Source: an uncultured bacterium (GTDB lineage: Bacteria > Patescibacteriota > Minisyncoccia > Phycocordibacterales > DATDWN01). Taken from it: 39,975 bases of DNA. The position numbers and the translations under genes were made by a program. Under the pieces are notes generated by a model, which made no database searches, was not told the DNA's origin, and saw nothing but the letters and a program-made list of their open reading frames with translations. This document shows positions 921 to 33,823 of the stretch, piece after piece. Positions within the stretch are counted from its first letter, which is position 1; every line of letters starts with the position of its first letter. The DNA is taken from positions 1 to 39,975 of the forward strand of contig CAIOTC010000020.1 of NCBI GenBank assembly GCA_903861205.1, given 5' to 3'.

Positions 921-1050
921 AACAAATTTTGTTTGGCTCGTGTTTTTTGAAAGAGTTTCGGACGACGGCGGTCGGAGAACGAGACGAAAAATCAGCAGAT
1001 TTTTACGGCGTCTCTTTCAAAAAATATGAGACAATAAGAAATTTGTGTTG
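921..1050. repeat. Structured palindromic intergenic element, copy A
   Basis: AACAAATTT-TGT...TAAG-AAATTTGTGTT ends; stem TTTTTTGAAAGAG/CTCTTTCAAAAAA; inner hairpin AAAAATC-AGCA-GATTTTT. Confidence 0.85.
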
Positions 1051-6435: not shown

Positions 6436-6607
6436 AAATCTCTTACGAGCTCGCATCATTTTCGAGACAAAACAATGCTTCCCGCCTTACAGGCGCAGTA
6501 CACCTTTTCGACTTTTTGATTACAAAAATTCTGAAAAGGTCTTGCAAAGCTGTAACACAGCTTCTCACCTGCGAAGTCTCAAAAATGATGCGACCTCGAC
6601 GAGATTT
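6436..6607. repeat. Structured palindromic intergenic element, copy E
   Basis: AAATCT-CTTA-CGAGCTCGCATCATTTTCGAGAC / GTCTCAAAAATGATGCGACCTCG-ACG-AGATTT; inner core related to 31632-31714. Confidence 0.85.
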
Positions 6608-6695: not shown

Positions 6696-6824
6696 AACAA
6701 ATTTTGTCGAGCCAAAGCAATTTTGGAGGCTCACGGACGGCGGCGGCCGGAGTGCGAGCGCCAAAATCAGCAGATTTTGGACGCGTACTCCAAAATTGCT
6801 TTGGCTCGTAAGAAATTTGTGTTG
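6696..6824. repeat. Structured palindromic intergenic element, copy B
   Basis: AACAAATTT-TGT-CGAGCCAAAGCAATTTTGGAG / CTCCAAAATTGCTTTGGCTCG-TAAG-AAATTTGT; 21-bp perfect stem; inner CCAAAATC-AGCA-GATTTTGG. Confidence 0.9.
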
Positions 6825-10070: not shown

Positions 10071-10249
10071 ACAAAATTTCGTTGAGCCACCACTTTTCTG
10101 GCACATTGCGCAGACAATTTAGAAAACAACGACGCAGCTGTGCGGGGCACACAGCGAGAAGATTGTTTTCTTAGATTGGCGAGCAGGAAGAAAAATCGCA
10201 GCAGCGATTTATTCTGGTGACGGAAAAGTGGTGGGTCGTAAGAAATTTA
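10071..10249. repeat. Structured palindromic intergenic element, copy C
   Basis: AAATTT-CGT-TGAGCCACCACTTTTCTGGCAC / GTGACGGAAAAGTGGTGGGTCG-TAAG-AAATTT; inner AAATCGC-AGCA-GCGATTT. Confidence 0.85.
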
Positions 10250-13225: not shown

Positions 13226-13597
13226 ATGAATAAACTCAACAAATCAATCGCATTAAAAGCAGTGCTTCCAGTTCTTGGATTAGCATTTCTTCTGGCCCTT
13301 TCAGTCGGACCGGCTTTCGCTTTTGCAGACAAAGATGACAGAATGATGACAGACAAAGATAGAGACAACGTAGTGGCGCCAACAACAGTAGCGCCGGCAA
13401 CATATCCGTATAGTTACGGTTACAGTTACGGCGCAAGCTATCCGTATAGCTACGGCACAAGCTATAGCTATCCGTACAGTTACGGTTACAGCTACCCATA
13501 CAGTTATGGCTCAAGCTATAGTTACCCATATAGTTACGGCAATAGTTACGGCGCAAGTTACAGCTACCCATACAGCTACGGATACAGCATCATCTAA
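13226..13597 (+). CDS. Secreted Tyr/Ser/Gly/Pro low-complexity repeat protein
   Basis: Signal peptide-like N-terminus (ALKAVLPVLGLAFLLALSVGPAFAFA) followed by YPYSYGYSYGAS-type repeats. Confidence 0.7.
   Translation: MNKLNKSIALKAVLPVLGLAFLLALSVGPAFAFADKDDRMMTDKDRDNVVAPTTVAPATYPYSYGYSYGASYPYSYGTSYSYPYSYGYSYPYSYGSSYSYPYSYGNSYGASYSYPYSYGYSII
13399..13590 (+). repeat. Degenerate coding tandem repeat (SYPYSYG units)
   Basis: Repeated TATCCGTATAGTTACGG-like units. Confidence 0.8.
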
Positions 13598-13823: not shown

Positions 13824-14528
13824 ATGATTAAAAACATTAAAAAATTATTGATGCCTGTCCTGAGTCTTGTACTCGCTCTCGGGCTTACGCTTTCGCCGAC
13901 TTTTGCTTTAGCAGAAGGAAGGCACAATAGCGGAAACAATGGAGGATGGAATCGAGGAAACAATAATCGAAGCTTCAGCTATAACAGAAACAACTCGAAT
14001 GTTGTTTCGAGTATCGGTGATGGAGACGGTGATGCCGATGATATTGTAGCAGCTCCGGCAATTAATTCTTACAGTTATGGCACAGCATATCCGACATACG
14101 GCACATCTTACGGATATGGTGGATATGGAACAACTTATGGTTCCGCAATTTCACCGGTAGTTTCGCCAACATTTGCGCCGGTAGTTAATCCGGTTGTGGC
14201 TCCGGTGGTTAATCCGGTGGTTGCTCCCGTGGTCAATCCGGTTTTTGCGCCGGTTGTAAATCCAGTGGTTGCGCCAGTCGTTAACCCAGTTTTCGCTCCG
14301 GTAGTTAATCCAGTGGTCGCCCCGGTTGTCGATCCAGTCTTTGCGCCAGTAGTCAATCCAGTTCCAGCACCAGTTGTTTCGCCGACGTTTGCACCAGTGG
14401 TTAATCCAGTTACAGCTCCGGTAGCAACGCCAACATACGCACCGGTGGTTAATCCCGTTCCTGCACCGGTAGTCAGTCCGACATACGCGCCGGTAGTCAA
14501 CCCAGTTTCTGCCCCGATTGTTTACTAG
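13824..14528 (+). CDS. Secreted low-complexity protein with APVVNPV repeats
   Basis: MIKNIKKLLMPVLSLVLALGLTLSPTFALA signal peptide; C-terminal tandem APVVNPV/APVVSPTF units. Confidence 0.7.
   Translation: MIKNIKKLLMPVLSLVLALGLTLSPTFALAEGRHNSGNNGGWNRGNNNRSFSYNRNNSNVVSSIGDGDGDADDIVAAPAINSYSYGTAYPTYGTSYGYGGYGTTYGSAISPVVSPTFAPVVNPVVAPVVNPVVAPVVNPVFAPVVNPVVAPVVNPVFAPVVNPVVAPVVDPVFAPVVNPVPAPVVSPTFAPVVNPVTAPVATPTYAPVVNPVPAPVVSPTYAPVVNPVSAPIVY
14150..14526 (+). repeat. Coding tandem repeat (about 21-24 nt units, APVVNPV)
   Basis: Repeated GCGCCGGTAGTTAATCCAGTT-like units. Confidence 0.85.
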
Positions 14529-14660: not shown

Positions 14661-14934
14661 GAATAAAAATTTCTTACGACCCGCCACTTTTCCGTCACCA
14701 GAATAATTTTCAATGGATTTCCTGTGTCATCCCCGCGCAGGCGGGGATCCAGTTCAAACTCTAGATTCCCCAAACATAATTTTCTACTGAAAATTTGTTC
14801 GGGCCCACCTCGGCCCGCCGGCCTCCGGTCTTGCGAACAGATAAAATCTGTTCTCACCTTCGCGGGAATGACAACTTTTTTAAAATGGTTCCGCAATGTG
14901 CCGGAAAAGTGCCGGCTCGACGAAATTTTTATTC
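14661..14934. repeat. Structured palindromic intergenic element, copy D, with a nested MITE-like element
   Basis: GAATAAAAATTT-CTTA-CGACCCGCCACTTTTCCGTCAC / GTGCCGGAAAAGTGCCGGCTCG-ACG-AAATTTTTATTC; ends match copy C. Confidence 0.85.
14726..14872. mobile_element. MITE-like element of the GTCATTCCCGCG type nested in copy D
   Basis: Terminal inverted repeats GTCATCCCCGCG / CGCGGGAATGAC; internal hairpins CGGGCC-cacctc-GGCCCG and GAACAGAT-aaa-ATCTGTTC. Confidence 0.65.
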
Positions 14935-24650: not shown

Positions 24651-24675
24651 AACTTGGAGGCTTTTCCTCCAAGTT
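24651..24675. repeat. REP hairpin 1, overlapping the RAYT stop codon
   Basis: AACTTGGAGG-CTTTT-CCTCCAAGTT. Confidence 0.9.
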
Positions 24676-25312
24676 AGTCAAACTCAAGATTATTCAATTC
24701 TTCTTTCTTTTTACATGTGTTTTTCCATGCTTGCAAGGCAAATTGTTCGTATTCTTTCTTTGATTTAAACTGATCCAATATTATTAATTTATTGCAAAAA
24801 TTAGTGTTGGCGGGCTGAATATATTCTACCCAACTTGATATACTTAATGGCTTGATAATAAATCCGTTTTCGTCGTAATTGTTTAAATTTGTATAAGAGA
24901 CCGCCTGGAGCAGATATTCATTTGAGTCAATGTATTTGCTTTTAAATTTCCCCTGAAATAATGAACCGGTTCTTTTGTTTTTCTCATTGAAATACATCGT
25001 GTATCCGGTTCCAAGTCTTTGCATAAATTTTTCCACACCTTTTTCATGAAGCGGGGAGAGGATAAAATGGTAATGATTCGAATTTAAACAAAAAGCAACA
25101 AATTCCACCAACTTGGAGGAAAAGCCTCCAAGTTCCTTTATAAAACTTTTTTCGTATAAACTACCAATGGGGTCTACAACATTGAATTCATTCATACTTT
25201 TAAAAAATCTTTCCAAATCATATTTATCAGAAAATATATTTCTTTTATCCACCCCTCTGTTATAAATATGGTAATACTCTCCCTCGATAAAATTTATTTT
25301 TCTACTAGACAT
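24674..25312 (-). mobile_element. REP-associated tyrosine transposase (RAYT, Y1/IS200-like)
   Basis: EYYHIYNRGVDKRNIF; LNSNHYHFIL (HxH); RTGSLFQGKFKSKYIDSNEYLLQAVSYTNLN. Confidence 0.93.
25110..25134. repeat. REP hairpin 2, inside the RAYT coding sequence
   Basis: AACTTGGAGG-AAAAG-CCTCCAAGTT, encoding ELGGFSSKL. Confidence 0.9.
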
Positions 25313-25326
25313 GGTTAAATTGTATC

Positions 25327-25349
25327 ACTTGGAGGAAAAGCCTCCAAGT
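25327..25349. repeat. REP hairpin 3, just upstream of the RAYT start
   Basis: ACTTGGAGG-AAAAG-CCTCCAAGT. Confidence 0.9.
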
Positions 25350-31613: not shown

Positions 31614-31789
31614 AATTCTCCCTTTCATAAAGGGTGAGAAGTTGTGTTACAACTTCGTAAAACCTTGAGTATTTTGTAATCAAAATGTGAAAGGTGTACT
31701 GCCTCTGTAAGAGGTGGCCGAAGGCCGAGGGATTTCGAATTCAAAAAATCCTCCGCCCTGCGGGCACCTCCTTTAGGAAAGGAGGATTA
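31614..31789. repeat. Structured multi-hairpin intergenic element, copy G (core related to copy E)
   Basis: AATTCTCCCTTTC/GAAAGGAGGATT outer arms; AAGTTG-tgtta-CAACTT; ATTTTG-taat-CAAAAT; GTGTACTGC; CCTC-tgtaa-GAGG. Confidence 0.7.
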
Positions 31790-33707: not shown

Positions 33708-33823
33708 ATTTCGTTACCTCATATTTTTTGAAAGAGACGCCGTGAAAATCTGCTGATTTTCCGTCTCGTTCTCCGACCGCCGTCGTCCGAAACTCTTTCA
33801 AAAAACACGAGCCACCGAAATTT
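33706..33823. repeat. Structured palindromic intergenic element, copy F
   Basis: 33718-33812 is the reverse complement of 936-1030 with two paired differences over 95 bp. Confidence 0.9.

Follow-up and report, generated by a model that had tools for sequence, protein, structure and literature searches.

A short structured module, present in the 39,975-nt stretch of DNA analysed here (the window), occurs in hundreds of copies across one order of ultra-small bacteria (Paceibacteria). Its core has a conserved, strand-specific fold and fixed ends, has inserted into targets that are unrelated to one another and reaches high copy numbers. We interpret the core as a non-autonomous mobile module whose three-hairpin fold is recognised on one strand by an unidentified mobilising enzyme, and give this reading a probability of roughly 0.5. 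Recognition by an enzyme is inferred; no transposition event was observed, and gain of the core, rather than its loss, is likewise an inference.

A conserved three-hairpin fold

The original prediction, based on two sequences of the window (31632-31714 and the reverse complement of about 6483-6570), held that the element is modular and that its core, which covaries, can be swapped. Both sequences were found at those positions, and the loops (TGTTA, GTAATC and TGTAA), the paired changes in the helices and the linker GTGTACTGC were all present as described. A search within the genome aligned positions 31633-31711 (copy G) with the reverse complement of 6486-6569 (copy E) at 81% identity over 79 nt (E = 2e-14), and the folding energies of copies G and E gave z = -4.9 and -3.7, respectively, against dinucleotide shuffles. 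The interval originally assigned to copy G (31614-31789) did not hold as a unit, since it merges an inserted core with an older host palindromic repeat. The inserted unit, TGAG...TGTAA, spans 31635-31710 on the forward strand (covariance model 100.1 bits, E 1.4e-22 in the genome), its ends having been set from an empty-site comparison and a table of 97 junctions. On the same strand it contains P1 (31638-31656), P2 (ACCTT/AAGGT, 31662-31666 paired with 31691-31695, enclosing P2b) and P3 (5' strand 31702-31705, UGUAA loop 31706-31710), which together make up a real conserved fold, the 85-nt core at 31633-31714 and 6483-6570. The host repeat lies on either side, also on the forward strand: its left part (CTCCCTTTCATAAAGGG, 31614-31634) has core-less matches at G000:C17:29077 (L003), C20:170614 (L004) and elsewhere, and its right part (31711-31789) shares 88-95% identity with copies in this genome that lack the core. 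The first bases of the right part, GAGG from 31711 on, double as the 3' strand of P3.

Copy E occupies 6479-6571 on the reverse strand (85.6 bits), about 50 nt upstream of the start of typA/BipA (TypA by Pfam). A core at this distance before a TypA/BipA-like start was also seen in a genome of a different family (G047:C17:40561-40651, L226). A probable half copy, GGTGAG-P1-CGCAAGACC, lies within another palindrome at 14793-14860 on the reverse strand (24.5 bits); on reading its sequence, P2 and P3 were not recognisable. The half-element sequences of the core are TGAG-P1-GCAAGACC on the left and GTGTACTG-P3 on the right.

With carets marking the junctions, the consensus is RG^TGAG-P1-CGCAAG-ACCTT(P2b)AAGGT-GTAC[T/A]G-NNCC-TGTAA^GGNN, and comparison of copies gave the unit as TGAG-P1-NGCAAG-P2(P2b)-GTGTAC[T/A]G-P3 half-TGTAA, with a length of 60-117 nt (median 78). 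The TGTAA loop and the linker were invariant among core copies. In an alignment of 47 copies, 94.6% of paired cells were canonical and changes on both sides occurred at 18 of 22 pairs; for 110 further copies the corresponding values were 92.0% and 21 of 22, and the covariation score was 0.517, compared to 0.135 when shuffled and at most 0.094 when slid. Two biases bear on the further copies. Most were fetched by the pattern AAGGTGTACWGNNCCTGTAAGG, so invariance inside that stretch is partly selected, and aligning the copies to the model favours its structure. P1, the 5' side of P2, and P2b fall outside the fetching pattern. Covariation was weak evidence when only two sequences were available but is very strong with the 47 and 110 further copies. 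Because G-U cells outnumbered A-C cells by 52 to 12 on the given strand, we take this to be the strand that folds. At gathering score, Rfam 15 had no match to the core, the sole match in the window being a tRNA; a relaxed search at the core site returned only poor, unrelated matches below threshold.

In the genome of the window, nucleotide and covariance-model searches recovered four strong copies plus a half copy. All 17 genomes examined from the same family had the core, as did 15 of 23 belonging to the order's other families; the remaining eight were without it. Under stricter filters, an even sample of the phylum yielded the core in 8 of 17 genomes of the order and in none of the 363 genomes outside it. 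Carrier records with names included Candidatus Zambryskibacteria, Nomurabacteria, Kaiserbacteria, Taylorbacteria, Lloydbacteria and Vogelbacteria. Copy number reached a maximum of about 30, in one 0.5-Mb genome, and in G440 four near-identical copies were situated in different places, each within a larger repeat with terminal inverted repeats. A single viral-contig match (L069) was rejected as a likely chance coding match with no R1 hit and no fold. The homolog search proposed with the original prediction was thus met within the order: homologs are plentiful, they covary, and the core is separable, all of which supports a modular element with a swappable core. The original prediction missed the insertion rule (RG^TGAG...TGTAA^GG), the connection to tRNAs and the cores that lie outside palindromes.

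Insertion sites, targets and tRNA arms

Because empty and filled versions of two host palindromes exist in one genome, the core is shown to be a separable insert. The palindromic repeat around copy G has four core-less occurrences in the same genome, with the empty form CATAAAGGG^AGTGGCCG corresponding to the filled form CATAAAGGG^TGAG...TGTAA^GAGGTGGCCG. The second family is empty in the window at 925-1030 (forward strand) and 33718-33823 (reverse strand), which are 94% complementary and form part of the inverted-repeat pair I1, and is filled with a core on contig C4 (L031), with flanks near-identical over 40 nt on each side. Long palindromic repeats of this family were also observed at 6699-6817, 10073-10248 and 14667-14929; their ends resemble AAATTTCGTCGAG / CTCGTAAGAAATTT, they enclose a hairpin with a CAGCAG loop, and their outer stems vary among copies while complementarity is kept. 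Elsewhere in the window, neighbouring open reading frames showed short-period tandem repeats of 12/24-nt units (14130-14521 and 13409-13582), the latter reading as Tyr-rich coding repeats.

In the 97 copies whose ends are clear, the core was preceded by GG (74) or AG (23), and in 87 it was followed by GG. As the end-search pattern demanded RG and TGTAA, this junction table describes the conserved form and is no test of it. Insertion takes place after RG with GG following (AGG or GGG sites), and an additional GG usually remains; in cases with a known native sequence, the gain amounts to the core plus one GG, as in GTGGGG^AGGGTCAG becoming GTGGGG^core^GGAGGGTCAG. Flanking direct repeats were found at 43 of 184 copies (one of them a run of N) compared to 2 in shuffled pairings, and the target duplications vary in length.

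The core interrupts palindromic repeats, gene starts and fragments of tRNA, 5S rRNA and terminators, and does so in both orientations; tRNA and 5S insertions likewise occurred both ways, antisense included. At the loci with direct repeats that we read, a split target fragment nearly always adjoined an intact copy of the target. This was the case for tRNA-Val (L146), tRNA-Glu (L021), tRNA-Phe (L105), tRNA-Gly (L153), tRNA-Pro (L117) and tRNA-Ile (L059 and L057, with two insertions each), for a 5S rRNA (L178) and a terminator (L207), and for the gene starts at L202 (msrA), L192 and L215, where gene names, including msrA, come from reading the peptide without a search. Site duplication was insufficient as the sole cause of these repeats. 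Simple recent duplication fails for L215 and L192, where most differences between the paired gene starts are at synonymous positions; in addition, some of the interrupted fragments are degenerate and of greater age. A P-loop kinase-like gene is interrupted in frame by the core at L164 (MVIGITGTIGAGKG^TVVEYLKEKKG...) and has one stop codon further on.

Orientation at protein genes was random, with classes of 20, 13, 12 and 24 in line with the background of intergenic gaps, and no conserved neighbour gene recurred among core copies. A cis-regulatory RNA (riboswitch or leader) would show constant orientation and related downstream genes, and this test was not met. A protein-coding core, suggested by a KVYC-CK reading across the 3' half, was rejected on the basis of length changes that are not multiples of three (ACCTT versus ACCTTTT), a stop within P2 in most copies, and the covarying stems.

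Approximately one-third of distinct copies (59 of 179) lay within 200 nt of a tRNA. The tRNAs concerned were of nearly every identity, 64 of 68 being on the same strand as the core and 48 of 68 upstream of it. Their typical layout comprises the tRNA, a terminator-like hairpin, an inverted copy of the tRNA from T-loop to 3' end, P2, P3, and the same tRNA end again in direct orientation. These arms match the 3' end of the adjacent tRNA and not tRNAs at large (antisense, 12.1 versus 7.1; sense, 11.8 versus 6.0; 0 of 10,000 permutations). The same arms around another interior were found at 29% and 30% of tRNAs without a model hit, compared to 5% and 4% in controls. Because model-negative tRNAs often carry such arms, the arms are a wider modular class of which the core is one filling. 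At several core-less tRNAs (L093, L141, L161, L163, L169, L146 and L160), other modules were framed by copies of the tRNA's own 3' end in inverted and direct orientation, and alternative interiors such as CGGCGGAG...GCGAG or GTACCCGCCGCAGTATCGGCG point to several fillings of one architecture. The arms could plausibly arise by fold-back copying at the terminator hairpin, though this is inferred.

A putative mobile module and its alternatives

If the core is a mobile module, a folded single strand, either single-stranded DNA or RNA, would be recognised by an enzyme acting in trans. The terminal GGs would be the site of cleavage or joining, with the conserved CC partners in P2 and P3 possibly reading them, and the covarying stems would persist since recognition depends on the fold. 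Insertion into an essential single-copy target would survive only where the target was duplicated alongside, and spread between palindromes may also have proceeded through recombination. The closest fit is the peel-and-paste logic of single-strand transposition of the IS200/IS605 type, which suits the core because it lacks inverted ends, has hairpins on one strand and uses a short target motif. Among the points against this reading, plain single-strand transposition predicts neither duplicated target fragments nor tRNA-derived inverted arms, and conservation in the middle of the core (P2 and the GTAC linker) exceeds what simple end recognition needs.

No mobilising enzyme could be assigned, because each of the three candidates failed as a universal partner by being missing from some carriers. 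Y1 transposase-like proteins, most of them RAYT-sized, were found in 8 of 11 carriers searched, window included, and were undetected in G047 (22 copies, 99% complete), G008 and G438. Reverse transcriptase genes were found in 7 of the 11 and not in G012, G057, G437 or G438. TnpB was found in 2 of 15 carriers, one hit being below the family cut-off. The IscB search gave no signal in any control genome and is hence uninformative. Among fetched loci, we did not find an autonomous element sharing the ends of the core. The Y1 transposase-like gene of the window (24674-25312, reverse strand; Pfam PF01797, E 5e-6; region 24651-25349) carries the hairpin CTTGGAGG-AAAA-CCTCCAAG at each of its ends, and this hairpin occurs a third time within the open reading frame (25107-25134).

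A bolder version, which we regard as no more than a possibility, is that the core represents a new mobile nucleic acid: an 80-nt folded RNA that would insert at GG sites by an RNA- or guide-like mechanism, copy part of its target (a tRNA 3' end or a gene start) beside itself, leaving the target intact, and have spread across a whole order of Patescibacteria. Whether the core acts as RNA is neither shown nor excluded.

The alternative that survives best, and remains possible, is a functional non-coding RNA, partly tied to tRNA transcription units and with a role in tRNA maturation or translation, for which dispersal would be secondary. In its favour are the proximity of 59 of 179 copies to tRNAs, the shared strand of 64 of 68 such tRNAs, the permutation-supported match of the arms to the adjacent tRNA, the invariant TGTAA loops and linker, and the copies ahead of typA in two families. 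Against it, orientation is random at protein genes and neighbours are not conserved, fragments of 5S rRNA and tRNA were entered in antisense, a terminator-like hairpin usually separates tRNA and element in the tRNA-linked copies, and some members of the order are wholly without the core. It is unlikely that the core is an RNA-level retroelement, in which a reverse transcriptase would join or copy the 80-nt RNA into targets with variable target duplications, as in eukaryotic SINEs. The duplications of variable length, the one-strand fold and the reverse transcriptase genes in 7 of 11 carriers would be expected, but G057, G437 and G438, where no such gene was found, hold 8-12 copies each, antisense tRNA and 5S insertions speak against joining to target RNA, and neither an A-tail nor a truncation series was seen. 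Also doubtful is the absence of any dedicated mobility, with palindromes reshuffled with or without the core by template switching and homologous recombination at replication, which would keep stems complementary: the T, inverted T, T arrangements behind tRNAs (a product of template switching at hairpins), the often near-perfect palindromic stems and the core-less tRNAs with the same arms around other interiors agree with it, but it leaves the fixed ends (RG^TGAG, TGTAA^GG), the invariant loops and linker, and insertion into unrelated targets unexplained.

Relation to known mobile elements

In the literature searched we found no description of the element, and the core is a strong candidate for an undescribed family of structured mobile elements that targets the most constrained genes (tRNA and 5S rRNA) but spares them. 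Although Patescibacteria have strongly reduced genomes, a single 0.5-Mb member carries about 30 copies of the module. With its ends defined and empty sites known, both mobility and the enzyme are directly testable, and, if transcribed, the core would also be a new order-wide RNA fold.

Like REPs and REPINs, which are associated with RAYT (Y1) proteins, the core is a short, non-autonomous, intergenic hairpin repeat in many copies, and RAYT-sized Y1 proteins occur in most core carriers, the one in the window having hairpins at both ends. However, REPs are palindromes of 20-40 bp (PMC3733652), whereas the core has an asymmetric multi-hairpin fold with invariant loops and inserts into REP-like palindromes without being one; some core carriers also lack Y1. 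The REP/REPIN test of a short single palindrome with a conserved tag tetranucleotide was not met, the consensus being asymmetric with three helices. HEARO and OMEGA RNAs (IscB, TnpB) resemble the core as structured RNAs in small mobile elements with many copies and a defined junction, but the core has no Rfam match and TnpB is rare among its carriers. Non-autonomous elements derived from IS200/IS605, whose transposase logic has been described (PMC6006769), likewise lack terminal inverted repeats, have one-strand hairpins near their ends and a short target motif beside the left end, and make no long target duplication in clean cases. The end criterion for this group (defined ends, no terminal inverted repeats and a short fixed target motif) was met by the 97 copies and the empty and filled pairs. 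The core differs in that its target fragments are often duplicated, no autonomous relative was found, and the enzyme is undemonstrated. REPINs, single-strand transposon derivatives and HEARO/OMEGA RNAs are the nearest kinds; we place the core among short non-autonomous mobile repeats, and consider it less probable that it is something categorically new.
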